Shown piece by piece: positions 11,355-52,622 of a stretch of DNA of 64,000 bases. A program made the translations under genes and the position numbers. The DNA lies in contig NC_058337.1 in NCBI RefSeq assembly GCF_905475395.1, forward strand, positions 102,976,368 through 103,040,367. The letters run 5' to 3'. The notes beneath the pieces are model-generated. The model was given only the letters and a program-made list of their open reading frames with translations. It made no database searches and had not been told where the DNA came from. Origin of the DNA: Chrysoperla carnea (taxonomy: Eukaryota > Arthropoda > Insecta > Neuroptera > Chrysopidae). Position 1 is the first letter of the stretch; each line of letters starts with the position of its first letter.

Positions 11355-12243
11355 ACACGTTTCGTCGAGGAAATGAGGCATTTGACCAAGGAATCGAGTC
11401 CGCACATGTAGATTTTTATGGTAGCCGGTGGGAAATGTTTGTACGAGTGTACTTAACAAATTCATATTCATGCGAACTTGTGTTTTATCAGTTTTCGCCC
11501 ATAAAGTGAGACAGAAATGCTACACTTCCGGACACAAGATTCTTTTTATTTGATATTTTAATTTTAAAAAAACTGTTGGATTTTAAATTTTGGGCGATTC
11601 CAAGCATTTTTGCATTTTTAGATCCTTGACATATTTGACCTCATCGTTTACGAGGCATAAGCATTTGGAAAAAAAAATGCGGATTTTCACCGAAAACTAG
11701 CTGTTAACGAAAATACAGATTATTTTGTGGTTCCGGTCAAAAATTTAATTTGATAGCTGTTACATATTATATTTTGGACGGTTCTAAGCATTTTTTTGGC
11801 TCTTTGAATATGGATAGCGGTAAGTTTAGGTGAAAACTTTATTTCAATAGTCAAAAAGTGTTCAGAATGGTTTAAAATATAATATCATACGATTTTCAAA
11901 TCAAATTTTTAACCAGAATCACAAAATAATCTTTATTTCCATCACTTACGGATTTTCGACGATTTTTTTTTTTTTTCAAATAAGTTTATCTCAAAAACGG
12001 TGAGGTAAAGTAAAAAATGTTGAGTGTTAAAAACGAATTAAAAGAACATGGCGTCCGGAAGTAGGGTGGTTCTGTACTACTTTGTGGGTGTAAATAGAAG
12101 AAACTAAAGTTCGCCTGAATATGATATTGTTGGGTACACTCAGTCATGCATTTTCCATCGGCTCCTATAGAAATCTAAAAATCTACTGTTGCAGAATCGA
12201 TATGCCTGGGTCAAATTGTTTTTTGGTTTCATTTCCTCGTTTA
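11355..12243. repeat. 890-bp diverged foldback repeat
   Basis: The left part (about 11,355-11,760) and right part (about 11,895-12,243) are inverted copies with roughly a quarter of positions different by eye. Matching landmarks are GTAGATTTTTATGGTAGCCG against the complement of CGGCTCCTATAGAAATCTAA, CACTTCCGGAC against GTCCGGAAGTA, and TTGTGGTTCCGGTCAAAAAT against the complement of TTTTTAACCAGAATCACAA. The apparent 89-codon frame at 11,240-11,509 falls on the left arm and has no family resemblance. The giant element at 12,251 inserted in or next to the right arm. Confidence 0.6.
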
Positions 12244-12250
12244 GTTTAAA
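12187..12250 (+). repeat. left half of the interrupted target repeat unit
   Basis: These 64 bases match, in direct orientation and with about 12 differences, the sequence at 35,609-35,675 (landmarks TTTATTTCCTCGTTTAG, CTGG.TCAAA.TGTTTTTT). The matching unit on the far side of the giant element is uninterrupted. This is therefore the left half of a repeat unit split by the insertion. Confidence 0.75.
12241..12250 (+). repeat. target-site duplication, left copy
   Basis: TTAGTTTAAA abuts the first base of the left terminal inverted repeat (TGAAGCTGAAGTTGG). The same ten bases follow the last base of the right terminal repeat at 35,544-35,553. Because flanking bases are partly symmetric, the duplication can also be read as 8 bp (TAGTTTAA) with one more base in each terminal repeat. 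Confidence 0.8.
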
Positions 12251-12687
12251 TGAAGCTGAAGTTGGCCGCTAAAAAATACCCACCAAAAAAAAATAGTCGA
12301 GAAAATAAAGGATAAAAAAAAAACATTATTTGTGACTTAAAATGGAATAATTTAGAACGCTATATTATAAGATCAACTCCCAGTATCATTAAGCTACCCA
12401 TAAAAAGTGAAATTAATAAGAAAATCTTGGGAAAATCATCCTCTTTGTATTATTATGACCAACAAATTTATTTTGCTTACGCTAGTTTTAAGCAACGTTT
12501 AACAATGAGTAATAAAAATAAGATATTCAACAAAAAAAATATGGAAAATTTCGGAAAATATGTAAGAAAATTTTCTTATGAAAAAAATTTTTTTTTGGAA
12601 AATTTTCTTGAATTTTGAAAGACATGGTAATGTGCGTGAGTACAAATTTTTTGTGTTCGCGAATTTTCTGAGTGTTTTTTTTACGTT
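12251..12687 (+). repeat. outer terminal inverted repeat, left
   Basis: This 437-bp non-satellite end begins TGAAGCTGAAGTTGGCCGCT. It is the exact reverse complement of 35,107-35,543 as far as I can read; both have the same length and translate identically in three shared frames. These frames (up to 98 codons) are by-products of AT-rich DNA with no domain, so I do not call them genes. The region also has A-rich runs and a hairpin-prone TTTTCTT/AAGAAAA segment near 12,565-12,610. Confidence 0.9.
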
Positions 12688-15600
12688 GCGGGTGTTTTTT
12701 GGAAAATTGACAATAACTTTTTTCTGCAAAATAAAATTTTTTTTTAAGGTAATTTTTTGGAATAACGAATGCATTTCGAAACTATCTATCATCATTAGGT
12801 CACTGTTTGAAAACTATATAGTGAATTTTAGTTGAATTTTAAAATGGGTATTTATCTTATAGAATAGTCATGTTTGGAAAACGTCATAATTTTCTTTAGC
12901 AAAATAACTTTTTCTTTTAAGCAAATTTTCTCGATAAATGAAAGGCTATTGAAACATTTAAGCACCATTAGATCAGTGTTTGAAAACTATATAGTGAATT
13001 TTAGTTGAATTTTAAAATGGGTATTTATCTTATAGAATAGTCATGTTTGGAAAACGTCATAATTTTCTTTAGCAAAATAACTTTTTCTTTTAAGCAAATT
13101 TTCTTGATAAATGAAAGGCTATTGAAACAATTTCGGTAGAATTGGTCACCGTTTGGCTACTATTTTCAATGATTACCCTATCTAATATAAGTACATTGTT
13201 AAAAAATTAGCGGGTGTTTTTTGGAAAATTGACAATAATTTTTTTCAGCAAAATAAAATTTTTTTTTAAGGTAATTTTTTGGAATAACGAATGCATTTCG
13301 AAACTATCTATCATCATTAGGTCACTGTTTGAAAACTATATAGTGAATTTTAGTTGAATTTTAAAATGGGTATTTATCTTATAGAATAGTCATGTTTGGA
13401 AAACGTCATAATTTTCTTTAGCAAAATAACTTTTTCTTTTAAGCAAATTTTCTCGATAAATGAAAGGCTATTGAAATATTTAAGCACCATTAGATCAGTG
13501 TTTGAAAACTATATAGTGAATTTTAGTTGAATTTTAAAATGGGTATTTATCTTATAGAATAGTCATGTTTGGAAAACGTCATAATTTTCTTTAGCAAAAT
13601 AACTTTTTCTTTTAAGCAAATTTTCTAGATAAATGAAAGGCTATTGAAACATTTAAGCACCATTATATCACTGTTTGAAAACTATATAGTGAATTTTAGT
13701 TGAATTTTAAAATGGGTATTTATCTTATAGAATAGTCATGTTTGGAAAACGTCATAATTTTCTTTAGCAAAATAACTTTTTCTTTTAAGCAAATTTTCTC
13801 GATAAATGAAAGGCTATTGAAATATTTAAGCACCATTAGATCAGTGTTTGAAAACTATATAGTGAATTTTAGTTGAATTTTAAAATGGGTATTTATCTTA
13901 TAGAATAGTCATGTTTGGAAAACGTCATAATTTTCTTTAGCAAAATAACTTTTTCTTTTAAGCAAATTTTCTAGATAAATGAAAGGCTATTGAAACATTT
14001 AAGCACCATTATATCACTGTTTGAAAACTATATAGTGAATTTTAGTTGAATTTTAAAATGGGTATTTATCTTATAGAATAGTCATGTTTGGAAAACGTCA
14101 TAATTTTCTTTAGCAAAATAACTTTTTCTTTTAAGCAAATTTTCTTGATAAATGAAAGGCTATTGAAACAATTTCGGTAGAATTGGTCACCGTTTGGCTA
14201 CTATTTTCAATGATTACCCTATCTAATATAAATACATTGTTAAAAAATTAGCGGGTGTTTTTTGGAAAATTGACAATAATTTTTTTCAGCAAAATAAAAT
14301 TTTTTTTTAAGGTAATTTTTTGGAATAACGAATGCATTTCGAAACTATCTATCATCATTAGGTCACTGTTTGAAAACTATATAGTGAATTTTAGTTGAAT
14401 TTTAAAATGGGTATTTATCTTATAGAATGGTCATGTTTGGAAAACGTCATAATTTTCTTTAGCAAAATAACTTTTTCTTTTAAGCAAATTTTCTTGATAA
14501 ATGAAAGGCTATTGAAACAATTTCGGTAGAATTGGTCACCGTTTGGCTACTATTTTCAATGATTACCCTATCTAATATAAGTACATTGTTAAAAAATTAG
14601 CGGGTGTTTTTTGGAAAATTGACAATAATTTTTTTCAGCAAAATAAAATTTTTTTTTAAGGTAATTTTTTGGAATAACGAATGCATTTCGAAACTATCTA
14701 TCATCATTAGGTCACTGTTTGAAAACTATATAGTGAATTTTAGTTGAATTTTAAAATGGGTATTTATCTTATAGAATAGTCATGTTTGGAAAACGTCGTA
14801 ATTTTCTTTAGCAAAATAACTTTTTCTTTTAAGCAAATTTTCTCGATAAATGAAAGGCTATTGAAACATTTAAGCACCATTAGATCAGTGTTTGAAAACT
14901 ATATAGTGAATTTTAGTTGAATTTTAAAATGGGTATTTATCTTATAGAATAGTCATGTTTGGAAAACGTCATAATTTTCTTTAGCAAAATAACTTTTTCT
15001 TTTAAGCAAATTTTCTCGATAAATGAAAGGCTATTGAAATATTTAAGCACCATTAGATCAGTGTTTGAAAACTATATAGTGAATTTTAGTTGAATTTTAA
15101 AATGGGTATTTATCTTATAGAATAGTCATGTTTGGAAAACGTCATAATTTTCTTTAGCAAAATAACTTTTTCTTTTAAGCAAATTTTCTAGATAAATGAA
15201 AGGCTATTGAAACATTTAAGCACCATTATATCACTGTTTGAAAACTATATAGTGAATTTTAGTTGAATTTTAAAATGGGTATTTATCTTATAGAATAGTC
15301 ATGTTTGGAAAACGTCATAATTTTCTTTAGCAAAATAACTTTTTCTTTTAAGCAAATTTTCTTGATAAATGAAAGGCTATTGAAACAATTTCGGTAGAAT
15401 TGGTCACCGTTTGGCTACTATTTTCAATGATTACCCTATCTAATATAAATACATTGTTAAAAAATTAGCGGGTGTTTTTTGGAAAATTGACAATAATTTT
15501 TTTCAGCAAAATAAAATTTTTTTTTAAGGTAATTTTTTGGAATAACGAATGCATTTCGAAACTATCTATCATCATTAGGTCACTGTTTGAAAACTATATA

Positions 15601-18600
15601 GTGAATTTTAGTTGAATTTTAAAATGGGTATTTATCTTATAGAATAGTCATGTTTGGAAAACGTCATAATTTTCTTTAGCAAAATAACTTTTTCTTTTAA
15701 GCAAATTTTCTCGATAAATGAAAGGCTATTGAAACATTTAAGCACCATTAGATCAGTGTTTGAAAACTATATAGTGAATTTTAGTTGAATTTTAAAATGG
15801 GTATTTATCTTATAGAATAGTCATGTTTGGAAAACGTCATAATTTTCTTTAGCAAAATAACTTTTTCTTTTAAGCAAATTTTCTTGATAAATGAAAGGCT
15901 ATTGAAACAATTTCGGTAGAATTGGTCACCGTTTGGCTACTATTTTCAATGATTACCCTATCTAATATAAGTACATTGTTAAAAAATTAGCGGGTGTTTT
16001 TTGGAAAATTGACAATAATTTTTTTCAGCAAAATAAAATTTTTTTTTAAGGTAATTTTTTGGAATAACGAATGCATTTCGAAACTATCTATCATCATTAG
16101 GTCACTGTTTGAAAACTATATAGTGAATTTTAGTTGAATTTTAAAATGGGTATTTATCTTATAGAATAGTCATGTTTGGAAAACGTCGTAATTTTCTTTA
16201 GCAAAATAACTTTTTCTTTTAAGCAAATTTTCTCGATAAATGAAAGGCTATTGAAACATTTAAGCACCATTAGATCAGTGTTTGAAAACTATATAGTGAA
16301 TTTTAGTTGAATTTTAAAATGGGTATTTATCTTATAGAATAGTCATGTTTGGAAAACGTCATAATTTTCTTTAGCAAAATAACTTTTTCTTTTAAGCAAA
16401 TTTTCTCGATAAATGAAAGGCTATTGAAATATTTAAGCACCATTAGATCAGTGTTTGAAAACTATATAGTGAATTTTAGTTGAATTTTAAAATGGGTATT
16501 TATCTTATAGAATAGTCATGTTTGGAAAACGTCATAATTTTCTTTAGCAAAATAACTTTTTCTTTTAAGCAAATTTTCTAGATAAATGAAAGGCTATTGA
16601 AACATTTAAGCACCATTATATCACTGTTTGAAAACTATATAGTGAATTTTAGTTGAATTTTAAAATGGGTATTTATCTTATAGAATAGTCATGTTTGGAA
16701 AACGTCATAATTTTCTTTAGCAAAATAACTTTTTCTTTTAAGCAAATTTTCTAGATAAATGAAAGGCTATTGAAACATTTAAGCACCATTATATCACTGT
16801 TTGAAAACTATATAGTGAATTTTAGTTGAATTTTAAAATGGGTATTTATCTTATAGAATAGTCATGTTTGGAAAACGTCATAATTTTCTTTAGCAAAATA
16901 ACTTTTTCTTTTAAGCAAATTTTCTTGATAAATGAAAGGCTATTGAAACAATTTCGGTAGAATTGGTCACCGTTTGGCTACTATTTTCAATGATTACCCT
17001 ATCTAATATAAATACATTGTTAAAAAATTAGCGGGTGTTTTTTGGAAAATTGACAATAATTTTTTTCAGCAAAATAAAATTTTTTTTTAAGGTAATTTTT
17101 TGGAATAACGAATGCATTTCGAAACTATCTATCATCATTAGGTCACTGTTTGAAAACTATATAGTGAATTTTAGTTGAATTTTAAAATGGGTATTTATCT
17201 TATAGAATAGTCATGTTTGGAAAACGTCATAATTTTCTTTAGCAAAATAACTTTTTCTTTTAAGCAAATTTTCTCGATAAATGAAAGGCTATTGAAACAT
17301 TTAAGCACCATTAGATCAGTGTTTGAAAACTATATAGTGAATTTTAGTTGAATTTTAAAATGGGTATTTATCTTATAGAATAGTCATGTTTGGAAAACGT
17401 CGTAATTTTCTTTAGCAAAATAACTTTTTCTTTTAAGCAAATTTTCTCGATAAATGAAAGGCTATTGAAACATTTAAGCACCATTAGATCAGTGTTTGAA
17501 AACTATATAGTGAATTTTAGTTGAATTTTAAAATGGGTATTTATCTTATAGAATAGTCATGTTTGGAAAACGTCATAATTTTCTTTAGCAAAATAACTTT
17601 TTCTTTTAAGCAAATTTTCTCGATAAATGAAAGGCTATTGAAACATTTAAGCACCATTAGATCAGTGTTTGAAAACTATATAGTGAATTTTAGTTGAATT
17701 TTAAAATGGGTATTTATCTTATAGAATAGTCATGTTTGGAAAACGTCATAATTTTCTTTAGCAAAATAACTTTTTCTTTTAAGCAAATTTTCTCGATAAA
17801 TGAAAGGCTATTGAAACATTTAAGCACCATTAGATCAGTGTTTGAAAACTATATAGTGAATTTTAGTTGAATTTTAAAATGGGTATTTATCTTATAGAAT
17901 AGTCATGTTTGGAAAACGTCGTAATTTTCTTTAGCAAAATAACTTTTTCTTTTAAGCAAATTTTCTCGATAAATGAAAGGCTATTGAAACATTTAAGCAC
18001 CATTAGATCAGTGTTTGAAAACTATATAGTGAATTTTAGTTGAATTTTAAAATGGGTATTTATCTTATAGAATAGTCATGTTTGGAAAACGTCATAATTT
18101 TCTTTAGCAAAATAACTTTTTCTTTTAAGCAAATTTTCTCGATAAATGAAAGGCTATTGAAACATTTAAGCACCATTAGATCAGTGTTTGAAAACTATAT
18201 AGTGAATTTTAGTTGAATTTTAAAATGGGTATTTATCTTATAGAATAGTCATGTTTGGAAAACGTCATAATTTTCTTTAGCAAAATAACTTTTTCTTTTA
18301 AGCAAATTTTCTCGATAAATGAAAGGCTATTGAAACATTTAAGCACCATTAGATCAGTGTTTGAAAACTATATAGTGAATTTTAGTTGAATTTTAAAATG
18401 GGTATTTATCTTATAGAATAGTCATGTTTGGAAAACGTCATAATTTTCTTTAGCAAAATAACTTTTTCTTTTAAGCAAATTTTCTTGATAAATGAAAGGC
18501 TATTGAAACAATTTCGGTAGAATTGGTCACCGTTTGGCTACTATTTTCAATGATTACCCTATCTAATATAAGTACATTGTTATAAAATTAGCGGGTGTTT

Positions 18601-21095
18601 TTTGGAAAATTGACAATAATTTTTTTCAGCAAAATAAAATTTTTTTTAAAGGTAATTTTTTGGAATAACGAATGCATTTCGAAACTATCTATCATCATTA
18701 GGTCACTGTTTGAAAACTATATAGTGAATTTTAGTTGAATTTTAAAATGGGTATTTATCTTATAGAATAGTCATGTTTGGAAAACGTCATAATTTTCTTT
18801 AGCAAAATAACTTTTTCTTTTAAGCAAATTTTCTCGATAAATGAAAGGCTATTGAAATATTTACGCAACATTAGATCAGTGTTTGAAAACTATATAGTGA
18901 ATTTTAGTTGAATTTTAAAATGGGTATTTATCTTATAGAATAGTCATGTTTGGAAAACGTCATAATTTTCTTTAGCAAAATAACTTTTTCTTTTAAGCAA
19001 ATTTTCTAGATAAATGAAAGGCTATTGAAACATTTAAGCACCATTAGATCAGTGTTTGAAAACTATATAGTGAATTTTAGTTGAATTTTAAAATGGGTAT
19101 TTATCTTATAGAATAGTCATGTTTGGAAAACGTCATAATTTTCTTTAGCAAAATAACTTTTTCTTTTAAGCAAATTTTCTAGATAAATGAAAGGCTATTG
19201 AAACATTTAAGCACCATTATATCACTGTTTGAAAACTATATAGTGAATTTTAGTTGAATTTTAAAATGGGTATTTATCTTATAGAATAGTCATGTTTGGA
19301 AAACGTCATAATTTTCTTTAGCAAAATAACTTTTTCTTTTAAGCAAATTTTCTTGATAAATGAAAGGCTATTGAAACAATTTCGGTAGAATTGGTCACCG
19401 TTTGGCTACTATTTTCAATGATTACCCTATCTAATATAAATACATTGTTAAAAAATTAGCGGGTGTTTTTTGGAAAATTGACAATAATTTTTTTCAGCAA
19501 AATAAAATTTTTTTTTAAGGTAATTTTTTGGAATAACGAATGCATTTCGAAACTATCTATCATCATTAGGTCACTGTTTGAAAACTATATAGTGAATTTT
19601 AGTTGAATTTTAAAATGGGTATTTATCTTATAGAATAGTCATGTTTGGAAAACGTCATAATTTTCTTTAGCAAAATAACTTTTTCTTTTAAGCAAATTTT
19701 CTCGATAAATGAAAGGCTATTGAAACATTTAAGCACCATTAGATCAGTGTTTGAAAACTATATAGTGAATTTTAGTTGAATTTTAAAATGGGTATTTATC
19801 TTATAGAATAGTCATGTTTGGAAAACGTCATAATTTTCTTTAGCAAAATAACTTTTTCTTTTAAGCAAATTTTCTCGATAAATGAAAGGCTATTGAAACA
19901 TTTAAGCACCATTAGATCAGTGTTTGAAAACTATATAGTGAATTTTAGTTGAATTTTAAAATGGGTATTTATCTTATAGAATAGTCATGTTTGGAAAACG
20001 TCATAATTTTCTTTAGCAAAATAACTTTTTCTTTTAAGCAAATTTTCTTGATAAATGAAAGGCTATTGAAACAATTTCGGTAGACTTGGTCACCGTTTGG
20101 CTACTATTTTCAATGATTACCCTATCTAATATAAGTACATTGTTAAAAAATTAGCGGGTGTTTTTTGGAAAATTGACAATAATTTTTTTCAGCAAAATAA
20201 AAATTTTTTTTAAGGTAATTTTTTGGAATAACGAATGCATTTCGAAACTATCTATCATCATTAGGTCACTGTTTGAAAACTATATAGTGAATTTTAGTTG
20301 AATTTTAAAATGGGTATTTATCTTATAGAATGGTCATGTTTGGAAAGCAACATAATTTTCTTTAGCAAAATAACTTTTTCTTTTAAGCAAATTTTCTCGA
20401 TAAATGAAAGGCTATTGAAACATTTAAGCACCATTAGATCACTGTTTGAAAACTATATAGTGAATTTTAGTTGAATTTTAAAATGGGTATTTATCTTATA
20501 GAATAGTCATGTTTTTTGAAAAACGTCATAATTTTCTTTAGCAAAATAAGTTTTTCGTTTAAGAAAATTTTCTCGATAAATGAAAGGCTATTGAAACATT
20601 TAAGCATTATTAGATGACTGTTTGAAAACCATACCATATCTTAAATGAAAGTATAATATGAACATTGTTAAAAAATTAGCGGGTGTTTTTTGGAAAATTG
20701 ACAATAACTTTTTTCAGCAAAATAAAATTTTTTTTTAAGGTAATTTTTTGGAATAACGAATCTATTTCGAAACTATCCATCATCATTAGATAAATGTTTG
20801 AAAATTATTTAGTGAATTTTAGTTGAATTTTAAAATGGGTATTTATCTTATAGAATGTCATCTTTGGTAAAGCATCATAATTTTCTTCAGCAAATTAACT
20901 TTTTCGTTTAAGAAAATTTTCTCGATAAATGAAAGGCTATTGAAACATTTAAGCAAGAATTGATCACTGTTTGAAAACTATTGAGTCAATTTTAGTTGAA
21001 TTTTAAAAATAAATAAAATTTTTCTTAAAGATAATTTTTTGGAGTTACGAATGCATTTCGAAACAATCTGTCTAGATATAGTCATTGTTTGCGAA
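12688..21095 (+). repeat. satellite array, left arm (about 48 monomers)
   Basis: The array is built of two related monomers in head-to-tail order. Monomer A is 173 bp and starts TGTTTGAAAACTATATAGTG. Monomer B is 176 bp and starts CGTTTGGCTACTATTTTCAA. Their second halves align clearly (GGAAAA, AGCAAAATAA, TTTTTAAG, GATAA or AATAACGAA, TTGAAAC or TTCGAAAC, CATTAG.TCA). A copies just before a B carry CTTGATAAA and end in TTTCGGTAGAATTGGTCAC; others carry CTCGATAAA or CTAGATAAA. Starts of GCGGGTG in B fall at 12,688, 13,210, 14,251, 14,600, 15,468, 15,990, 17,031, 18,591, 19,459, 20,154 and 20,679. Monomers after about 20,300 are increasingly degenerate. Confidence 0.95.
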
Positions 21096-22330
21096 TTTTT
21101 GAGGGGTTTTTAGCAAAGATACCTTTTTATTTTTTAAAATTATCAAACGGAAGACCTCCTCAATCCACTTCGAAAAATAAATAATGTATACTATGTATAA
21201 TTAATTTAAAAAAATTTTTCAATTGTCGCGCTAATTTTGAGCGTTACGATAAAATAAGATATAAAAACAAATATCTTGGAGTAATTCAATGGTCTGGTAC
21301 TGTACTTGGTACCTAACATTTTTTTGTAACGTACTCCTACACACGCACTACATATTTATTTATAAGTTTTGTTTCAATGTTCAATAAAATGAGCCAAGAG
21401 CGTTTTCTTGGTGTGAGAACTTCGCCATAAATTAATCTATCAATAAGTTGTTCTTGAAAAAAATCTACAGCATAGTTTTTTAAGTTATGATGTGTAACAT
21501 GATAACTACACAACTAGATCGTATTTTGTTAATAGAAATTGCATTTATATGTTACCTTTGATTCCATTAATCCTTAATTGCACTAAAAATATCAATTTAA
21601 TCACGATTTCGAAATATTAATGCACTTTTACTTACACATCTTTCACTCTTCAATATTTTTTATCTCACACAAATTGAAATTTCAACACTATAGATATTTA
21701 ATTTCTGCACTTTTAAAACTTAGGTATACAAACACATTAGAACAATTAACAAACTGGTAAATTTAAACAACAATATAAGTCAGAGATTTAAACGATTAAA
21801 TTTTATAATTGTTATTTTCAACAACAAAACTTATGTTAACATTTTTTTACATGTATAATTCACCAACTTAAATTTAACATCATAATTCATAATTGGAAAT
21901 ATATTTTTTTAATAAATACACATCAAATATAATTTTATTTATAAATAGTGTTTTTGAAACTATACCCTTCGATATTTTGTATGTGCGCATGTATATGACT
22001 TGTTTTAACAAAGTACATTTGTTTGGTGTGAAATAGTAATAAATATTTTTTTTTAAATATTCAATACCATAGACATGAAAAAATAATTTTTTTTTCTGGA
22101 TTGGAATGGAAGAATTTTATTAAAATCTTTTAATATAAAAATATAAGTCCAAGAAAATTGTCAAATGTTTGTAGTTTCTTGAAATTACAAGATCAGCCAT
22201 TTATAAACGTACAGTCATGTTTTTCACTGTCAATGAAAATTTTCGGAAATTGTATTATCGCCTAAAAAATTATACATATATTTTTCAATATTTATATGCA
22301 ATACAATCGCACTTATGTGTCACTTTTAAT
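21096..22330 (+). repeat. inner non-satellite arm, left
   Basis: This pairs as an inverted copy with 23,474-24,714. The outer part (for example 21,420-21,950 against 23,850-24,380) is nearly identical. Similarity drops toward the centre, and by 22,240-22,322 the match is recognisable but well diverged, with small indels. I see no coding frame. It contains AT-rich sequence and homopolymers only. Confidence 0.8.
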
Positions 22331-22360
22331 AAAAAAATTTTAACAAAAAAAAATCCGACA

Positions 22361-22390
22361 TCAAAAATTTCAAAACAAATTAATATGCAC
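22361..22390 (+). repeat. innermost paired arm, left
   Basis: TTTCAAAACAAATTAATATG within this segment is exactly complementary to the core of 23,025-23,054. This shows the palindrome once continued almost to its centre of symmetry before other sequences inserted between the two halves. Confidence 0.7.
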
Positions 22391-22400
22391 TCTTAAGTAC

Positions 22401-22856
22401 AACAAGTGAAAACAAACAATTGACTGAGTTAATTGTTGAAATACCATGCATAGTCAGTGTTGATTTCTTTATCACATAACACATACAAACATGTGACAAT
22501 ACATAACTGATAATCAAGTATAGTACATATTATAAAATTTCCGCCTAATTGGCGCCCTCACGGATAAACAGTAATGTTTACGAAAAAATGTTTCAGACAA
22601 AAGTTGTTTTTACTCTTAAACTTTTGTTCTATCTCTAACGGTTTACAAGATGGGTCCTACGGACCCAAGACCCAATTGACCGATCGTGTCCACAGACGGA
22701 CGGACGGACGGACAACCGGAAATGGACTAATTAGGTGGTTTTATGAACACCTATGACCAAATTTTTTTCCTAGCATCATTATTTTTAAGCGTTTCAAACT
22801 TGGGGCTAAACTTAATATACTATGCCTATTTCATATATACATGATATAAAAATAAC
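22401..22856 (+). repeat. dispersed repeat with GACGGACGG tract, copy 1
   Basis: This matches 45,697-46,140 in the same orientation, with an internal length difference. Shared landmarks are GTGAAAACAAACAATTGACT, GAGTTAATTGTTGAAATA, ACATAACTGAT, ATGTTT..GACAAAAGTTG, a (GACG)n-like tract and GGAAATGGACTAATTAG followed by TTTTATGAACACCTA. The 60-codon frame at 22,574-22,756 is part of the repeat and not a gene. It occupies the loop of the giant palindrome and has no counterpart in the opposite arm, so it is probably a later insertion. The class is unknown; it resembles a non-autonomous interspersed repeat. Confidence 0.7.
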
Positions 22857-23019
22857 GATTATGTAATGTAGTTACAATTATTGTTTTTTGAGAGTCGGTG
22901 CATGTCAAGGAAACAACTGTCACAGAACAACAAAATAGTTTGCTACATTAACTTGGCTGACACCGGCTCCAAAAATAACATAATTGTAACTACATTATGT
23001 TACCGTTTTCTATTTTTAG
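22849..23019. mobile_element. MITE-like foldback in the loop of the giant element
   Basis: Arms of about 50 bp (22,849-22,900 and 22,960-23,019) are inverted copies sharing ATGTAGTTACAATTAT and GAG.CGGTG, with a few mismatches and one short indel. They surround a 60-bp loop without coding potential. It abuts the dispersed repeat and lies between the innermost paired arms, so it was nested there after the palindrome formed. Confidence 0.65.
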
Positions 23020-23024
23020 TTTTA

Positions 23025-23054
23025 GTGCATATTAATTTGTTTTGAAATTTTGTG
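23025..23054 (-). repeat. innermost paired arm, right
   Basis: This is the inverted counterpart of 22,361-22,390 (GTGCATATTAATTTGTTTTG). On its outer side the right half carries about 420 bp (23,055-23,473) not found in the left half. Confidence 0.7.
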
Positions 23055-23473: not shown

Positions 23474-24714
23474 TGTCAGATTAGTAATATTGTATTGTAT
23501 AGGAATATTGAAAATATAAGTACCTACAAATTTTCAGGTGTTGTAATAAAACAGATTCCGAAAATTTTTATTGAGAGTGAAAAACATGACTGTACGTTGA
23601 GAAATGGCCGATCTTGTAATTTCAAGAAACTACAAACATTTGATAATTTTCCTGGACTTTATTTTAAAAGATTTTAATAAAATTCTTCTATTACAATCCA
23701 GAAAAAAAAATTATCTTTTCATGTCTATGGTATTGTATATTTAAAAAAAAATATTTATTTCTATTTCACACCAAAAAAGTGTACTTTGGTTAAGAAAGTC
23801 ATATACATGCGCACTTTTATCATACAAAATATCGAAGGGTATATTTTCAAAAACACTATTTATAAATAAAATTATATTTGATGTGTATTTATTAAAAAAA
23901 TATATTTCCAATTATGAATTATGATGTTAAATTTAAGTTGGTGAATTATACATGTAAAAAAATGTTAACATAAGTTTTGTTGTTGAAAATAACAATTATA
24001 AAATTTAATCGTTTAAATCTCTGACTTATATTGTTGTTTAAATTTACCAGTTTGTTAATTGTTCTAATGTGTTTGTATACCTAAGTTTTAAAAGTGCAGA
24101 AATTAAATATCTATAGTGTTGAAATTTCAATTTGTGTGAGATAAAAAATATTGAAGAGTGAAAGATGTGTAAGTAAAAGTGCATTAATATTTCGAAATCG
24201 TGATTAAATTGATATTTTTAGTGCAATTAAGGATTAATGGAATCAAAGGTAACATATAAATGCAATTTCTATTAACAAAACACGATCTAGTTGTGTAGTT
24301 ATCATGTTACACATCATAACTTGAAAAACTATGCTGCAGATTTTTTTTCAAGAACAACTTATTGATAGATTAATTTATGGCGAAGTTTAATCTATACCAA
24401 GAAAAAGCTCTTGGCCCATTTTATTGAACATATTATTAAAACTTATAAATATGTAGTGCGTGTGTATGAGTACATTACAAAAAAAATTTTTTGTACCAAG
24501 TACAGTACGAGACCATTAAATTACTCCAAGCATATTTGTTTTTATTTCTTATTTTATCGTAACGTGCAAAATTAGCGCGACAATTGAACAATTTTTTTAA
24601 ATTAATTATACAAAGTATACATATTTTATTTTTCGAAGTGGCTTGAGGAAGTCTCCGTTTGATAATTTTACAAAATAAAAAGATAACTTTGCTTAAAAAC
24701 CCCTCAAAAGTTAG
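23474..24714 (-). repeat. inner non-satellite arm, right
   Basis: This is the inverted counterpart of 21,096-22,330. The two frames called here (23,495-23,677 and 24,475-24,717) lie in repeat DNA and have no family resemblance. Small differences from the left arm include short insertions near 24,385 and several substitutions. The two inner arms have evidently not been kept as identical as the outer ends. Confidence 0.8.
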
Positions 24715-27700
24715 CAAACAATGACTAATTCTAGACAGATTGTTTCGAAATGCATTTGTTATTCCAAAAAATTACCTTAAAAAAAAATTTTATTTTGCTG
24801 AAAAAAGTTATTGTCAATTTTCCAAAAAACACCCGCTAATTTTTTAACAATGTTCATTCATATTATACTTTCATGTAAGATATTGGAATCATTGAAATGA
24901 ATTTTCAAACACTATTCTAATAATGCTTAAATGTTTCAATAGCCTTTCATTTATCGAGAAAATTTTATTAAACGAAAAACTTATTTTGCTAAAGAAAATT
25001 ATGACGTTTTTCAAAAAACATGACTATTCTATAAGATAAATACCCATTTTAAAATTCAACTAAAATTCACAAAATAATTTTCAAACGCTTATCTAATGAT
25101 GATAGATAGTTTCGAAATAGATTCGTTATTCCAAAAAATTACCTTAAAAAAAAATTTTATTTTGCTAAAGAAAATTATGACGTTTTCCAAACATGACTAT
25201 TCTATAAGATAAATACCCATTTTAAAATTCAACTAAAATTCACTATATAGTTTTCAAACACTGATCTAATGGTGCTTAAATATTTCAATAGCCTTTCATT
25301 TATCGAGAAAATTTGCTTAAAAGAAAAAGTTATTTTGCTAAAGAAAATTATGACGTTTTCCAAACATGACTATTCTATAAGATAAATACCCATTTTAAAA
25401 TTCAACTAAAATTCACTATATAGTTTTCAAACACTGATCTAATGGTGCTTAAATGTTTCAATAGCCTTTCATTTATCGAGAAAATTTGCTTAAAAGAAAA
25501 AGTTATTTTGCTAAAGAAAATTACGACGTTTTCCAAACATGACTATTCTATAAGATAAATACCCATTTTAAAATTCAACTAAAATTCACTATATAGTTTT
25601 CAAACAGTGACCTAATGATGATAGATAGTTTCGAAATGCATTCGTTATTCCAAAAAATTACCTTAAAAAAAAATTTTATTTTGCTGAAAAAAATTATTGT
25701 CAATTTTCCAAAAAACACCCGCTAATTTTTTAACAATGTACTTATATTAGATAGGGTAATCATTGAAAATAGTAGCCAAACGGTGACCAATTCTACCGAA
25801 ATTGTTTCAATAGCCTTTCATTTATCAAGAAAATTTGCTTAAAAGAAAAAGTTATTTTGCTAAAGAAAATTATGACGTTTTCCAAACATGACTATTCTAT
25901 AAGATAAATACCCATTTTAAAATTCAACTAAAATTCACTATATAGTTTTCAAACACTGATCTAATGGTGCTTAAATGTTTCAATAGCCTTTCATTTATCG
26001 AGAAAATTTGCTTAAAAGAAAAAGTTATTTTGCTAAAGAAAATTATGACGTTTTCCAAACATGACTATTCTATAAGATAAATACCCATTTTAAAATTCAA
26101 CTAAAATTCACTATATAGTTTTCAAACAGTGACCTAATGATGATAGATAGTTTCGAAATGCATTCGTTATTCCAAAAAATTACCTTAAAAAAAAATTTTA
26201 TTTTTCTGAAAAAAATTATTGTCAATTTTCCAAAAAACACCCGCTAATTTTTTAACAATGTATTTATATTAGATAGGGTAATCATTGAAAATAGTAGCCA
26301 AACGGTGACCAATTCTACCGAAATTGTTTCAATAGCCTTTCATTTATCAAGAAAATTTGCTTAAAAGAAAAAGTTATTTTGCTAAAGAAAATTATGACGT
26401 TTTCCAAACATGACTATTCTATAAGATAAATACCCATTTTAAAATTCAACTAAAATTCACTATATAGTTTTCAAACAGTGATATAATGGTGCTTAAATGT
26501 TTCAATAGCCTTTCATTTATCTAGAAAATTTGCTTAAAAGAAAAAGTTATTTTGCTAAAGAAAATTATGACGTTTTCCAAACATGACTATTCTATAAGAT
26601 AAATACCCATTTTAAAATTCAACTAAAATTCACTATATAGTTTTCAAACAGTGACCTAATGATGATAGATAGTTTCGAAATGCATTCGTTATTCCAAAAA
26701 ATTACCTTAAAAAAAAATTTTATTTTGCTGAAAAAAATTATTGTCAATTTTCCAAAAAACACCCGCTAATTTTTTAACAATGTATTTATATTAGATAGGG
26801 TAATCATTGAAAATAGTAGCCAAACGGTGGCCAATTCTACCGAAATTGTTTCAATAGCCTTTCATTTATCAAGAAAATTTGCTTAAAAGAAAAAGTTATT
26901 TTGCTAAAGAAAATTATGACGTTTTCCAAACATGACTATTCTATAAGATAAATACCCATTTTAAAATTCAACTAAAATTCACTATATAGTTTTCAAACAG
27001 TGATATAATGGTGCTTAAATGTTTCAATAGCCTTTCATTTATCTAGAAAATTTGCTTAAAAGAAAAAGTTATTTTGCTAAAGAAAATTATGACGTTTTCC
27101 AAACATGACTATTCTATAAGATAAATACCCATTTTAAAATTCAACTAAAATTCACTATATAGTTTTCAAACACTGATCTAATGGTGCTTAAATATTTCAA
27201 TAGCCTTTCATTTATCGAGAAAATTTGCTTAAAAGAAAAAGTTATTTTGCTAAAGAAAATTATGACGTTTTCCAAACATGACTATTCTATAAGATAAATA
27301 CCCATTTTAAAATTCAACTAAAATTCACTATATAGTTTTCAAACACTGATCTAATGGTGCTTAAATGTTTCAATAGCCTTTCATTTATCGAGAAAATTTG
27401 CTTAAAAGAAAAAGTTATTTTGCTAAAGAAAATTACGACGTTTTCCAAACATGACTATTCTATAAGATAAATACCCATTTTAAAATTCAACTAAAATTCA
27501 CTATATAGTTTTCAAACAGTGACCTAATGATGCTAGATAGTTTCGAAATGCATTCGTTATTCCAAAAAATTACCTTAAAAAAAAATTTTATTTTTCTGAA
27601 AAAAATTATTGTCAATTTTCCAAAAAACACCCGCTAATTTTTTAACAATGTACTTATATTAGATAGGGTAATCATTGAAAATAGTAGCCAAACGGTGACC

Positions 27701-30700
27701 AATTCTACCGAAATTGTTTCAATAGCCTTTCATTTATCAAGAAAATTTGCTTAAAAGAAAAAGTTATTTTGCTAAAGAAAATTATGACGTTTTCCAAACA
27801 TGACTATTCTATATGATAAATACCCATTTTAAAATTCAACTAAAATTCACTATATAGTTTTCAAACACTGATCTAATGGTGCTTAAATGTTTCAATAGCC
27901 TTTCATTTATCGAGAAAATTTGCTTAAAAGAAAAAGTTATTTTGCTAAAGAAAATTATGACGTTTTCCAAACATGACTATTCTATAAGATAAATACCCAT
28001 TTTAAAATTCAACTAAAATTCACTATATAGTTTTCAAACAGTGACCTAATGATGATAGATAGTTTCGAAATGCATTCGTTATTCCAAAAAATTACCTTAA
28101 AAAAAAATTTTATTTTGCTGAAAAAAATTATTGTCAATTTTCCAAAAAACACCCGCTAATTTTTTAACAATGTATTTATATTAGATAGGGTAATCATTGA
28201 AAATAGTAGCCAAACGGTGACCAATTCTACCGAAATTGTTTCAATAGCCTTTCATTTATCAAGAAAATTTGCTTAAAAGAAAAAGTTATTTTGCTAAAGA
28301 AAATTATGACGTTTTCCAAACATGACTATTCTATAAGATAAATACCCATTTTAAAATTCAACTAAAATTCACTATATAGTTTTCAAACAGTGATATAATG
28401 GTGCTTAAATGTTTCAATAGCCTTTCATTTATCTAGAAAATTTGCTTAAAAGAAAAAGTTATTTTGCTAAAGAAAATTATGACGTTTTCCAAACATGACT
28501 ATTCTATAAGATAAATACCCATTTTAAAATTCAACTAAAATTCACTATATAGTTTTCAAACAGTGATATAATGGTGCTTAAATGTTTCAATAGCCTTTCA
28601 TTTATCTAGAAAATTTGCTTAAAAGAAAAAGTTATTTTGCTAAAGAAAATTATGACGTTTTCCAAACATGACTATTCTATAAGATAAATACCCATTTTAA
28701 AATTCAACTAAAATTCACTATATAGTTTTCAAACACTGATCTAATGGTGCTTAAATATTTCAATAGCCTTTCATTTATCGAGAAAATTTGCTTAAAAGAA
28801 AAAGTTATTTTGCTAAAGAAAATTATGACGTTTTCCAAACATGACTATTCTATAAGATAAATACCCATTTTAAAATTCAACTAAAATTCACTATATAGTT
28901 TTCAAACACTGATCTAATGGTGCTTAAATGTTTCAATAGCCTTTCATTTATCGAGAAAATTTGCTTAAAAGAAAAAGTTATTTTGCTAAAGAAAATTACG
29001 ACGTTTTCCAAACATGACTATTCTATAAGATAAATACCCATTTTAAAATTCAACTAAAATTCACTATATAGTTTTCAAACAGTGACCTAATGATGATAGA
29101 TAGTTTCGAAATGCATTCGTTATTCCAAAAAATTACCTTAAAAAAAAATTTTATTTTGCTGAAAAAAATTATTGTCAATTTTCCAAAAAACACCCGCTAA
29201 TTTTTTAACAATGTACTTATATTAGATAGGGTAATCATTGAAAATAGTAGCCAAACGGTGACCAATTCTACCGAAATTGTTTCAATAGCCTTTCATTTAT
29301 CAAGAAAATTTGCTTAAAAGAAAAAGTTATTTTGCTAAAGAAAATTATGACGTTTTCCAAACATGACTATTCTATAAGATAAATACCCATTTTAAAATTC
29401 AACTAAAATTCACTATATAGTTTTCAAACACTGATCTAATGGTGCTTAAATGTTTCAATAGCCTTTCATTTATCGAGAAAATTTGCTTAAAAGAAAAAGT
29501 TATTTTGCTAAAGAAAATTATGACGTTTTCCAAACATGACTATTCTATAAGATAAATACCCATTTTAAAATTCAACTAAAATTCACTATATAGTTTTCAA
29601 ACAGTGACCTAATGATGATAGATAGTTTCGAAATGCATTCGTTATTCCAAAAAATTACCTTAAAAAAAAATTTTATTTTGCTGAAAAAAATTATTGTCAA
29701 TTTTCCAAAAAACACCCGCTAATTTTTTAACAATGTATTTATATTAGATAGGGTAATCATTGAAAATAGTAGCCAAACGGTGACCAATTCTACCGAAATT
29801 GTTTCAATAGCCTTTCATTTATCAAGAAAATTTGCTTAAAAGAAAAAGTTATTTTGCTAAAGAAAATTATGACGTTTTCCAAACATGACTATTCTATAAG
29901 ATAAATACCCATTTTAAAATTCAACTAAAATTCACTATATAGTTTTCAAACAGTGATATAATGGTGCTTAAATGTTTCAATAGCCTTTCATTTATCTAGA
30001 AAATTTGCTTAAAAGAAAAAGTTATTTTGCTAAAGAAAATTATGACGTTTTCCAAACATGACTATTCTATAAGATAAATACCCATTTTAAAATTCAACTA
30101 AAATTCACTATATAGTTTTCAAACACTGATCTAATGGTGCTTAAATGTTTCAATAGCCTTTCATTTATCGAGAAAATTTGCTTAAAAGAAAAAGTTATTT
30201 TGCTAAAGAAAATTACGACGTTTTCCAAACATGACTATTCTATAAGATAAATACCCATTTTAAAATTCAACTAAAATTCACTATATAGTTTTCAAACAGT
30301 GACCTTATGATGATAGATAGTTTCGAAATGCATTCGTTATTCCAAAAAATTACCTTAAAAAAAAATTTTATTTTGCTGAAAAAAATTATTGTCAATTTTC
30401 CAAAAAACACCCGCTAATTTTTTAACAATGTACTTATATTAGATAGGGTAATCATTGAAAATAGTAGCCAAACGGTGACCAATTCTACCGAAATTGTTTC
30501 AATAGCCTTTCATTTATCAAGAAAATTTGCTTAAAAGAAAAAGTTATTTTGCTAAAGAAAATTATGACGTTTTCCAAACATGACTATTCTATAAGATAAA
30601 TACCCATTTTAAAATTCAACTAAAATTCACTATATAGTTTTCAAACACTGATCTAATGGTGCTTAAATGTTTCAATAGCCTTTCATTTATCGAGAAAATT

Positions 30701-33700
30701 TGCTTAAAAGAAAAAGTTATTTTGCTAAAGAAAATTATGACGTTTTCCAAACATGACTATTCTATAAGATAAATACCCATTTTAAAATTCAACTAAAATT
30801 CACTATATAGTTTTCAAACAGTGACCTAATGATGATAGATAGTTTCGAAATGCATTCGTTATTCCAAAAAATTACCTTAAAAAAAAATTTTATTTTGCTG
30901 AAAAAAATTATTGTCAATTTTCCAAAAAACACCCGCTAATTTTTTAACAATGTATTTATATTAGATAGGGTAATCATTGAAAATAGTAGCCAAACGGTGG
31001 CCAATTCTACCGAAATTGTTTCAATAGCCTTTCATTTATCAAGAAAATTTGCTTAAAAGAAAAAGTTATTTTGCTAAAGAAAATTATGACGTTTTCCAAA
31101 CATGACTATTCTATAAGATAAATACCCATTTTAAAATTCAACTAAAATTCACTATATAGTTTTCAAACAGTGATATAATGGTGCTTAAATGTTTCAATAG
31201 CCTTTCATTTATCTAGAAAATTTGCTTAAAAGAAAAAGTTATTTTGCTAAAGAAAATTATGACGTTTTCCAAACATGACTATTCTATAAGATAAATACCC
31301 ATTTTAAAATTCAACTAAAATTCACTATATAGTTTTCAAACAGTGATATAATGGTGCTTAAATGTTTCAATAGCCTTTCATTTATCTAGAAAATTTGCTT
31401 AAAAGAAAAAGTTATTTTGCTAAAGAAAATTATGACGTTTTCCAAACATGACTATTCTATAAGATAAATACCCATTTTAAAATTCAACTAAAATTCACTA
31501 TATAGTTTTCAAACACTGATCTAATGGTGCTTAAATGTTTCAATAGCCTTTCATTTATCGAGAAAATTTGCTTAAAAGAAAAAGTTATTTTGCTAAAGAA
31601 AATTACGACGTTTTCCAAACATGACTATTCTATAAGATAAATACCCATTTTAAAATTCAACTAAAATTCACTATATAGTTTTCAAACAGTGACCTAATGA
31701 TGATAGATAGTTTCGAAATGCATTCGTTATTCCAAAAAATTACCTTAAAAAAAAATTTTATTTTGCTGAAAAAAATTATTGTCAATTTTCCAAAAAACAC
31801 CCGCTAATTTTTTAACAATGTACTTATATTAGATAGGGTAATCATTGAAAATAGTAGCCAAACGGTGACCAATTCTACCGAAATTGTTTCAATAGCCTTT
31901 CATTTATCAAGAAAATTTGCTTAAAAGAAAAAGTTATTTTGCTAAAGAAAATTATGACGTTTTCCAAACATGACTATTCTATAAGATAAATACCCATTTT
32001 AAAATTCAACTAAAATTCACTATATAGTTTTCAAACACTGATCTAATGGTGCTTAAATGTTTCAATAGCCTTTCATTTATCGAGAAAATTTGCTTAAAAG
32101 AAAAAGTTATTTTGCTAAAGAAAATTATGACGTTTTCCAAACATGACTATTCTATAAGATAAATACCCATTTTAAAATTCAACTAAAATTCACTATATAG
32201 TTTTCAAACAGTGACCTAATGATGATAGATAGTTTCGAAATGCATTCGTTATTCCAAAAAATTACCTTAAAAAAAAATTTTATTTTGCTGAAAAAAATTA
32301 TTGTCAATTTTCCAAAAAACACCCGCTAATTTTTTAACAATGTATTTATATTAGATAGGGTAATCATTGAAAATAGTAGCCAAACGGTGGCCAATTCTAC
32401 CGAAATTGTTTCAATAGCCTTTCATTTATCAAGAAAATTTGCTTAAAAGAAAAAGTTATTTTGCTAAAGAAAATTATGACGTTTTCCAAACATGACTATT
32501 CTATAAGATAAATACCCATTTTAAAATTCAACTAAAATTCACTATATAGTTTTCAAACAGTGATATAATGGTGCTTAAATGTTTCAATAGCCTTTCATTT
32601 ATCTAGAAAATTTGCTTAAAAGAAAAAGTTATTTTGCTAAAGAAAATTATGACGTTTTCCAAACATGACTATTCTATAAGATAAATACCCATTTTAAAAT
32701 TCAACTAAAATTCACTATATAGTTTTCAAACAGTGATATAATGGTGCTTAAATGTTTCAATAGCCTTTCATTTATCTAGAAAATTTGCTTAAAAGAAAAA
32801 GTTATTTTGCTAAAGAAAATTATGACGTTTTCCAAACATGACTATTCTATAAGATAAATACCCATTTTAAAATTCAACTAAAATTCACTATATAGTTTTC
32901 AAACACTGATCTAATGGTGCTTAAATATTTCAATAGCCTTTCATTTATCGAGAAAATTTGCTTAAAAGAAAAAGTTATTTTGCTAAAGAAAATTATGACG
33001 TTTTCCAAACATGACTATTCTATAAGATAAATACCCATTTTAAAATTCAACTAAAATTCACTATATAGTTTTCAAACACTGATCTAATGGTGCTTAAATG
33101 TTTCAATAGCCTTTCATTTATCGAGAAAATTTGCTTAAAAGAAAAAGTTATTTTGCTAAAGAAAATTACGACGTTTTCCAAACATGACTATTCTATAAGA
33201 TAAATACCCATTTTAAAATTCAACTAAAATTCACTATATAGTTTTCAAACAGTGACCTAATGATGATAGATAGTTTCGAAATGCATTCGTTATTCCAAAA
33301 AATTACCTTAAAAAAAAATTTTATTTTGCTGAAAAAAATTATTGTCAATTTTCCAAAAAACACCCGCTAATTTTTTAACAATGTACTTATATTAGATAGG
33401 GTAATCATTGAAAATAGTAGCCAAACGGTGACCAATTCTACCGAAATTGTTTCAATAGCCTTTCATTTATCAAGAAAATTTGCTTAAAAGAAAAAGTTAT
33501 TTTGCTAAAGAAAATTATGACGTTTTCCAAACATGACTATTCTATATGATAAATACCCATTTTAAAATTCAACTAAAATTCACTATATAGTTTTCAAACA
33601 CTGATCTAATGGTGCTTAAATGTTTCAATAGCCTTTCATTTATCGAGAAAATTTGCTTAAAAGAAAAAGTTATTTTGCTAAAGAAAATTATGACGTTTTC

Positions 33701-35106
33701 CAAACATGACTATTCTATAAGATAAATACCCATTTTAAAATTCAACTAAAATTCACTATATAGTTTTCAAACAGTGACCTAATGATGATAGATAGTTTCG
33801 AAATGCATTCGTTATTCCAAAAAATTACCTTAAAAAAAAATTTTATTTTGCTGAAAAAAATTATTGTCAATTTTCCAAAAAACACCCGCTAATTTTTTAA
33901 CAATGTATTTATATTAGATAGGGTAATCATTGAAAATAGTAGCCAAACGGTGACCAATTCTACCGAAATTGTTTCAATAGCCTTTCATTTATCAAGAAAA
34001 TTTGCTTAAAAGAAAAAGTTATTTTGCTAAAGAAAATTATGACGTTTTCCAAACATGACTATTCTATAAGATAAATACCCATTTTAAAATTCAACTAAAA
34101 TTCACTATATAGTTTTCAAACAGTGATATAATGGTGCTTAAATGTTTCAATAGCCTTTCATTTATCTAGAAAATTTGCTTAAAAGAAAAAGTTATTTTGC
34201 TAAAGAAAATTATGACGTTTTCCAAACATGACTATTCTATAAGATAAATACCCATTTTAAAATTCAACTAAAATTCACTATATAGTTTTCAAACACTGAT
34301 CTAATGGTGCTTAAATGTTTCAATAGCCTTTCATTTATCGAGAAAATTTGCTTAAAAGAAAAAGTTATTTTGCTAAAGAAAATTATGACGTTTTCCAAAC
34401 ATGACTATTCTATAAGATAAATACCCATTTTAAAATTCAACTAAAATTCACTATATAGTTTTCAAACAGTGACCTAATGATGATAGATAGTTTCGAAATG
34501 CATTCGTTATTCCAAAAAATTACCTTAAAAAAAAATTTTATTTTGCTGAAAAAAATTATTGTCAATTTTCCAAAAAACACCCGCTAATTTTTTAACAATG
34601 TACTTATATTAGATAGGGTAATCATTGAAAATAGTAGCCAAACGGTGACCAATTCTACCGAAATTGTTTCAATAGCCTTTCATTTATCAAGAAAATTTGC
34701 TTAAAAGAAAAAGTTATTTTGCTAAAGAAAATTATGACGTTTTCCAAACATGACTATTCTATAAGATAAATACCCATTTTAAAATTCAACTAAAATTCAC
34801 TATATAGTTTTCAAACACTGATCTAATGGTGCTTAAATGTTTCAATAGCCTTTCATTTATCGAGAAAATTTGCTTAAAAGAAAAAGTTATTTTGCTAAAG
34901 AAAATTATGACGTTTTCCAAACATGACTATTCTATAAGATAAATACCCATTTTAAAATTCAACTAAAATTCACTATATAGTTTTCAAACAGTGACCTAAT
35001 GATGATAGATAGTTTCGAAATGCATTCGTTATTCCAAAAAATTACCTTAAAAAAAAATTTTATTTTGCAGAAAAAAGTTATTGTCAATTTTCCAAAAAAC
35101 ACCCGC
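24715..35106 (-). repeat. satellite array, right arm (about 60 monomers, 4,170-bp period)
   Basis: It uses the same A (173 bp) and B (176 bp) monomers as the left array, in the opposite orientation. The B landmark CACCCGC starts at 24,830, 25,716, 26,238, 26,760, 27,628, 28,150, 29,191, 29,713, 30,408, 30,930, 31,798, 32,320, 33,361, 33,883, 34,578 and 35,100. From 26,238 the spacings 522, 868, 522, 1,041, 522, 695 occur twice in the same order, an exact 4,170-bp higher-order unit of 24 monomers, followed by the start of a third (522). Monomers from 24,715 to about 25,150 are degenerate. Confidence 0.95.
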
Positions 35107-35543
35107 AACGTAAAAAAAACACTCAGAAAATTCGCGAACACAAAAAATTTGTACTCACGCACATTACCATGTCTTTCAAAATTCAAGAAAATTTTCCAAA
35201 AAAAAATTTTTTTCATAAGAAAATTTTCTTACATATTTTCCGAAATTTTCCATATTTTTTTTGTTGAATATCTTATTTTTATTACTCATTGTTAAACGTT
35301 GCTTAAAACTAGCGTAAGCAAAATAAATTTGTTGGTCATAATAATACAAAGAGGATGATTTTCCCAAGATTTTCTTATTAATTTCACTTTTTATGGGTAG
35401 CTTAATGATACTGGGAGTTGATCTTATAATATAGCGTTCTAAATTATTCCATTTTAAGTCACAAATAATGTTTTTTTTTTATCCTTTATTTTCTCGACTA
35501 TTTTTTTTTGGTGGGTATTTTTTAGCGGCCAACTTCAGCTTCA
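35107..35543 (-). repeat. outer terminal inverted repeat, right
   Basis: This is the reverse complement of 12,251-12,687, ending CCAACTTCAGCTTCA. Three open frames in this arm mirror those of the left arm residue for residue, showing there is no frame-changing difference across at least 540 bp. The identity points to recent formation or to gene conversion between the ends. Confidence 0.9.
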
Positions 35544-35553
35544 TTAGTTTAAA
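35544..35553 (+). repeat. target-site duplication, right copy
   Basis: TTAGTTTAAA follows directly after the terminal repeat, a direct copy of 12,241-12,250. It continues into ACAATAG.TTGGTACATG, the expected second half of the split target unit. Confidence 0.8.
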
Positions 35554-52395: not shown

Positions 52396-52622
52396 GAGTT
52401 TGATTTCCGATTTATTGAAATTTGTATTTTCTTCAATCGTGAAAAAAAAGATTTGGTTTGGAAAATAATAATCGTCTTTTATTAAAGCATAAAAATCTTT
52501 CCCCTATGCGTAACATATGTGTAAATGAAAGGAATGTGCTTCCAGAAAATGCAAATACTAAATAAAAGAAACTAATTTACAAGTAAAATTAGAATGACAG
52601 ATAAATAACAATAGAAAAAAGA

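Follow-up and report, generated by a model that had tools for sequence, protein, structure and literature searches.

The stretch of Chrysoperla carnea DNA analysed here, called the window (64,000 nucleotides; NC_058337.1, positions 102,976,368 to 103,040,367), contains a 23.3-kb inverted repeat whose arms consist largely of satellite-like tandem monomers, which raises the question of whether a transposon carries these repeats and where they came from. Foldback (FB) elements of Drosophila have foldback arms of tandem subrepeats and a short target duplication, the subrepeats being short and the whole element a few kb long. The inverted repeat, designated E1, is read here as a Foldback-like, non-autonomous DNA transposon that probably belongs to the Mutator (Mutator-like element, MULE) superfamily and whose satellite arms probably grew within the family; we give this reading a probability of about 0.86. 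E1 would thus represent a satellite-like repeat carried around the genome inside an apparently gene-less transposon family. An earlier note on this DNA had reported a 23.3-kb inverted repeat with perfect outer ends, which was found at the claimed place, and had proposed a genome search with the outer end. That search gave about 40 places (a lower bound) and 13 convergent pairs of ends, nine of them with exact 8–9-bp duplications; together with an uninterrupted paralogous target, these results leave the note's Foldback-like interpretation standing.

Boundaries and insertion of E1

E1 spans positions 12250–35544 (23,295 bp), begins with ATGAAGCTGAAG and ends with the reverse complement CTTCAGCTTCAT, and an 8-bp target-site duplication, TAGTTTAA, flanks it on both sides (12242–12249 and 35545–35552). 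The outermost 1,227 bp of the left and right arms are 100% identical. A 10-bp duplication, TTAGTTTAAA, with element ends at TGAAG had been proposed earlier. However, an extra A before TGAAG and an extra T after CTTCA are present at the ends of E1–E8 (further copies are described below) and of an element nested in E5, showing that these bases belong to the element and that the duplication is 8 bp; the 10-bp alternative is ruled out, and both the duplication and the ends are corrected to the sequences given above.

E1 lies in the first of the two units of a small tandem duplication; the second (35608–35726) is still uninterrupted and carries a single TAGATTAA. When the flanks of E1 are joined and aligned to this second unit, 108 identities are obtained over 118 aligned positions with one gap. 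The earlier note had suggested looking for empty alleles; an empty target is present as a paralogous site in the window itself. The duplications and this empty paralogous site together indicate that E1 arrived by insertion. The structure is not due to chance, and an assembly artefact appears unlikely at the sequence level, given the perfect identity over 1,227 bp, the recurrence of the same plan at other loci and the exact duplications at seven of the eight elements E1–E8.

The family across the genome

The genome searched comprised 559 Mb in 337 contigs, and the copy counts are lower bounds. The 400-bp outer end gave at least 41 matches (40 of 46 first-look candidates scored) and the 120-bp tip at least 40 (40 of 41 candidates scored); the 26-base tip, with at most three mismatches, was found at 35 places, 30 of them exact, and its reversed control at none. 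Thirteen convergent pairs of ends were identified, i.e., E1–E12 and one nested in E5 (E5i), of which E1–E8 and E12 were examined whole and E9–E11 from their ends or parts only. Exact duplications flank 9 of the 13 pairs, with a length of 8 bp in E1, E2, E4, E8 and E12 and of 9 bp in E5, E6, E7 and E10, and the E11 duplication has one mismatch in eight. The right tip of E10 is eroded, and its duplication adjoins the eroded tip directly. The exact 8–9-bp duplications at 7 of the 8 elements E1–E8 were compared with two controls, in which mismatched pairings of left and right flanks gave 0 of 56 and shifted positions gave 0 of 3,048. A short duplication of near-constant length (8–9 bp) is therefore found at defined ends at many loci, as in Foldback-type transposons. 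Several other tips occur without a partner and seem to belong to truncated copies.

A common plan of tips, arrays, inner arms and core

On each side of E1, a 438-bp tip is followed inward by a satellite array and a 1.3-kb inner arm, the two inner arms (91.6% identical) continuing the inverted repeat around a central 1.1-kb core (Table 1). The arms are unequal, the satellite measuring ~8.4 kb on the left vs. ~10.4 kb on the right (48 vs. 60 monomer anchors). The earlier description of long terminal repeats built largely of tandem monomers in arms of ~10–12 kb is thus borne out for E1, though with arms of different length. Long inverted repeats made mostly of tandem subrepeats, with different repeat numbers in the two arms of one element, are Foldback-type traits.

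Table 1. Parts of E1 and its target site, in window positions
Feature	Position	Strand	Remarks
Left target-site duplication TAGTTTAA	12242..12249	.	8 bp; boundary from the A/T at both ends of E1–E8
Left outer tip, 438 bp, starts ATGAAGCTGAAGTTGGCCGC	12250..12687	+	100% identical to right tip; same tip genome-wide; no coding signal
Left satellite array, 48 monomer anchors, mostly 173/176 bp	12688..21069	+	A and CB units in the outer part; a short stretch of D/E type innermost
Left inner arm, 1.3 kb	21009..22332	+	begins with ~60 bp of remnant monomer that also count in the array span
Core, 1.1 kb	22333..23463	.	no transposase found; carries a 69-bp dispersed-repeat piece at 22394–22462
Right inner arm	23464..24795	-	91.6% identical to left inner arm
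Right satellite array, 60 monomer anchors	24734..35106	-	holds the tandem duplication with 4,171-bp shift
Right outer tip, 438 bp	35107..35544	-	ends CTTCAGCTTCAT
Right target-site duplication TAGTTTAA	35545..35552	.	pairs with left copy
Paralogous uninterrupted target site, single TAGATTAA	35608..35726	+	joined-flank alignment

The same order of parts is found in E1–E4 and E6–E8, i.e., in seven of the eight main-family elements examined whole, with lengths of 15.6–23.3 kb. The core of E1 shares 99.9% identity with those of E2 and E3, and the three elements lie at different loci, which indicates recent spread; the right arrays nevertheless measure 7.8 kb in E2 and 4.7 kb in E3 vs. 10.4 kb in E1. 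The eighth element, E5 (20.9 kb), is a composite in which the outer tips and arrays, flanked by a 9-bp duplication, enclose a second palindrome of 10.9 kb, which has no core and no duplication of its own and whose two arrays meet within 12 bp. Judged by eye, both breakpoints of this nested palindrome apparently lie at nearly the same monomer position in opposite orientation. The 69-bp dispersed-repeat piece in the E1 core recurs in the window at 45693–45761 with 92.8% identity, and core-like pieces were found near several single tips elsewhere in the genome.

Order and length of the satellite arrays

From 14 arms of seven elements (E5 left out), 573 monomers were cut, of which 562 of 160–190 bp were classified and 11 were dropped by length. 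They form a few sharp types, with a mean identity of 98–100% within a type and 65–93% between type consensuses. Type A is a chimera whose first 75 bp resemble type C (92%) and whose remainder resembles type B (98%). After an A monomer comes A or C (232 of 239 cases), and after a C monomer always B or D (93 and 5 counted cases, respectively), which means that the outer zone of the arrays is built from two units, A of 173 bp and CB of 349 bp. This outer zone is present in 13 of the 14 arms, where it comprises 12–57 monomers, and D/E-type monomers occupy the inner end of the arrays; in the left arm of E7, which has no outer zone, they continue right up to the tip. In the right array of E1, a block of 24 monomers has recently been duplicated in tandem (25799–30936 vs. 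29970–35106, shift of 4,171 bp, 99.57% identity over 5,138 bp). This duplication and the different array strings beside near-identical cores show that the arrays change in length.

Proposed copying between arms: tips and inner arms

In E4 and E5, the left and right 438-bp tips share variants of their own element; E8 and E9 have tip variants common to each other, and the tips of E1–E3 are all identical. Over nine elements, the left–right differences between tips sum to 12, compared with a permutation mean of 60, and 0.04% of 20,000 permutations were as low; without E5, the sum is 12 vs. 25, with 96 of 40,320 pairings as low. Several results weigh against a general homogenisation of the tips. 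The two tips of E6 and of E7 differ by 4 and 8, respectively, so that the pattern is not universal. The signal weakens when near-identical elements are collapsed (4 of 720 pairings as low) and further when E5 is also removed (only 4 of 120). E5 dominates the sum, and most of its differences lie in the innermost ~30 bp of the 438-bp tip, where it meets the array; the pairing test moreover assumes independent elements, which they are not. A signal of tip homogenisation is thus present but moderate.

The inner arms clearly show the opposite pattern. The left and right inner arms of one element differ at 46–55 of 1,020 columns, and inner arms from the same side of different elements at 0–28 (E8, which lies in the opposite orientation, was left out of this side comparison); the split between left and right inner arms has a support of 1.000. 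Similar tips within an element combined with side-specific inner arms indicate that homogenisation is active close to the tips but scarcely in the inner arms, and the contrast marks where arm-to-arm copying takes place. It also makes a link between transposition and the concerted evolution of a satellite testable.

Origin of the satellite

A divergent relative, E12 (9,237 bp), is flanked by an exact 8-bp duplication, CTTTAAAC. Its tips are 82–88% like those of E1, and pieces of its inner arms are 80–91% like those of E1. In its left arm, satellite-like sequence occurs only at about 367–980, between tip and inner arm. On self-alignment, left positions 144–1260 pair with right positions 7897–9038, indicating a right arm of similar length. 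The few monomers per arm in this relative suggest that the arrays grew inside the family, a reading that would be weakened if the short arrays of E12 are a reduction rather than the ancestral state, which they could be. E12 (L067) also carries a pair of identical direct repeats of 562 bp at a spacing of 3.1 kb (3319–3880 and 6395–6956), which have the form of a long-terminal-repeat (LTR)-like insertion. Bases 320–364 of the tip match the monomer at 39 of 50 positions, a score that none of 200 shuffles reached; as several comparisons were made, this similarity is only suggestive as to origin. Thus, where the earlier note had proposed a satellite that travels as a transposon arm or originated from one, the first part is supported by arrays inside elements with exact duplications at many loci, and for the second the short arrays of E12 and the weak tip–monomer similarity point the same way.

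Coding capacity and superfamily

No frame longer than 136 amino acids (the longest stop-to-stop frame, in E6; 104 in E1) occurs in E1–E8, as expected of a non-autonomous element, so that the enzyme moving these elements must be supplied from another source. When nine window frames, six within E1, were compared with Pfam, no transposase match exceeded the cut-off, and the frames of the E1 core are too short and match no family. At nine loci of single-end copies and the tip at C1:128089217, there is no frame longer than 140 amino acids, and three frames tested there matched no family. Two frames of E12 (198 and 190 amino acids) were rejected as transposase candidates, since both sit between the 562-bp repeats of the LTR-like insertion and neither has a family match that exceeds the cut-off.

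The tip was likewise considered and rejected as coding sequence, since its frame stops after 14–29 codons in 28 of 30 copies. In copy L051, a frame of 122 amino acids runs from the tip ATG; L053, too, stays open, for 121 codons, but its match to L051 extends over just 252 bp. Tip substitutions are not consistently at third positions, with the diverged copies L055 and L056 leaning that way (6 of 12 and 5 of 8, respectively), and the tip frame matched neither protein families nor solved structures at a meaningful E-value.

Two features of the family are those of Mutator elements, namely the 8–9-bp duplications, within the 8–10 bp typical of the superfamily, and terminal inverted repeats (TIRs) longer than 100 bp (perfect identity from the tip over 110–1,227 bp in E1–E8); a MULE transposase inside the element, or in an autonomous relative sharing its ends, was not found, which is expected if the element is non-autonomous. 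The genome contains 14 MULE-domain matches in open frames of 71–736 amino acids, 12 of which lie within 1.5 Mb near the end of C1 (138278958–139763879; open frames of 194–736 amino acids). Because no transposase was found in the elements and no domain near their ends, the superfamily is assigned from duplication length and architecture, and membership in the Mutator (MULE) superfamily is likely, not proven: a best guess rather than a finding.

Comparison with known systems

The closest known system is Tetris of Drosophila virilis, likened by architecture alone. Both have a tip domain, outer tandem repeats (~220 bp in Tetris), an inner domain and a non-coding middle; in both, no transposase was found, and the duplications measure 8–10 bp in Tetris and 8–9 bp here. 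A stretch shared by tip and repeat is seen in both as well (37 bp at ~80% in Tetris, 39 of 50 positions in E1), and the Tetris repeats have been linked to satellite formation, as is proposed for the E1 family. Three structurally complete copies of Tetris were sequenced, with TIRs of up to 1,735 bp, and its contigs contain arrays of up to 66 repeats; long arrays with a tip signal on either side were seen by fibre fluorescence in situ hybridisation (fibre-FISH), and the authors considered that larger arrays may have disrupted transposition (PMC4079207). Tetris was placed in Mutator on similar grounds, and Foldback transposons were already proposed there as seeds of satellite DNA (PMC4079207). 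In contrast to the complete Tetris copies, E1 has arms of ~10–12 kb that are resolved base by base, and it is one of the elements with an exact target duplication. The portions of the literature searched yielded no foldback element that combines satellite arms of ~10 kb, sequenced to the base, with an exact duplication.

Muta1 of Aedes aegypti, a MULE, has 8- or 9-bp duplications, tandem repeats in its TIRs and many non-autonomous derivatives, but differs in its size of 3.2 kb, its 145-bp TIRs with 12-bp repeats and its encoded transposase (PMC5225508). The mixed 8/9-bp duplications of the E1 family match insect MULEs such as Muta1, which makes Mutator the best guess. Tm1 of root-knot nematodes (Mutator/Foldback) shares composite TIRs with a variable number of internal repeats, 8–10-bp duplications and paralogous empty sites; it differs in its repeats of ~14 bp (1–9 units), its 2.6-kb transposase-bearing element (Phantom-like) and an average identity of 93% between the two TIRs of an element (PMC3169594). 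Galileo of Drosophila (P superfamily) has long, internally repetitive TIRs, with ~210-bp tandem units in one group, and two arms with independent dynamics, whereas its TIRs reach only about 1.26 kb and its transposase is of the P type (PMC3573991).

Large arrays inside a Tetris-like element are thus already precedented by the Tetris contigs and fibre-FISH. What is new here is the size of the element, the two-unit grammar of the arrays and the contrast between tips and inner arms. As base-resolved elements with exact target duplications carry up to about 60 monomers per arm, arrays of satellite size either moved intact or grew fast after insertion. According to a review, the efficacy of DNA transposition falls above 6 kb of cargo, so that elements of 15–23 kb are unexpected.

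Proposed mechanism and alternatives

In the proposed mechanism, a transposase made elsewhere would recognise the 438-bp tips and excise the element, which would reinsert by an 8–9-bp staggered cut, insertion being evident from the duplications and the empty paralogue. The tandem arms may change length by unequal exchange or slippage. The outer ends would be copied between arms by gene conversion or an equivalent pathway, leaving the pattern seen, with its exceptions, in the tips, and the inner arms would be inherited each on its own side. The satellite probably expanded from a small number of monomers that the arms already contained, a state like that of E12. A further, tentative idea, which we consider rather doubtful, is that transposition itself drives the satellite: excision and repair would rewrite one outer end from the other and re-measure the tip-proximal array. 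New repeat types would then arise beside the tips and extend inwards, with the inner arms left unchanged, and the transposon would be a mobile machine that grows and homogenises a satellite.

The choice of a Foldback-like element moved by a MULE transposase has evidence against it: a transposase between the same ends, which the earlier note had suggested looking for in a full-length relative, was found neither in the E1 and E12 frames compared with protein families nor, by frame length, in E1–E8; none of the 14 MULE-domain matches in the genome lies within 10 Mb of any found end; and, of five IS1595-type (Merlin-like) domains, the nearest is 1.84 Mb from a found tip. The same element might instead be moved by another transposase that leaves 8-bp-type duplications (P/Galileo, hAT or Merlin), which we regard as unlikely. 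The ATGAAG... ends are, as we take them, unlike hAT or Merlin termini, and mixed 8/9-bp duplications (five and four of the nine exact cases) fit insect MULEs best; the five Merlin-like matches speak for this alternative, as does Galileo, a Foldback-like element of the P superfamily (PMC3573991). Capture of a pre-existing chromosomal satellite by a small foldback element, which then carried it, would suit the satellite scale of the arrays, their two distinct zones and E10, in which the right tip has at least 1.2 kb of satellite and none occurs in the 3.75 kb read beside the left tip. However, divergent E12 already has a few monomers at the same place between tip and inner arm, and the tip–monomer similarity, weak as it is among several comparisons, also points to growth within the family, making capture distinctly improbable.

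Two further alternatives deny transposition altogether. A fold-back chimera of one satellite arm, made in assembly, would account for the perfect inverted identity over 1,227 bp, but not for the different lengths of the arms, the divergence between the inner arms, the exact duplications or the recurrence of the plan at independent loci, and it is hardly credible. Segmental inverted duplications of satellite, spread by recombination without transposition, have in their favour the nested composite E5 and the three of 13 pairs with no duplication (E3, E9 and E5i), the latter also telling against the transposon reading. This alternative is already contradicted for the majority of copies by the 9 of 13 pairs whose ends are precise, identical and flanked by exact 8–9-bp duplications, and by the uninterrupted paralogous site, and its probability is minimal. 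An inversion between elements was tried as an explanation of the missing duplications of E3 and E9 and rejected, as no foreign end among 30 carries an exactly matching 8- or 9-mer; AT-rich 8-mers with one mismatch occur between ends (E3L–E8R, E9R–E4R and E9R–E8R) and are not taken as evidence.

Neighbouring sequence

Among the nine window frames, the sole Pfam matches above cut-off are to NPR3/NPR2, in a gene at 52605–53774 outside E1; this segment is an exon of an NPRL3-type gene (Pfam NPR3, E 3.9e-35). A 187-bp inverted repeat with 77.5% identity (54297–54479 and 54583–54766) is perhaps an old small DNA transposon. At 59573–59771, tandem repeats of ~42–52 bp are rich in TTCnnGAA-like motifs, which we take to be heat-shock-element-like, and they are followed at ~59918–59945 by a short hairpin and CTAGT, presumably resembling a Helitron 3′ end.

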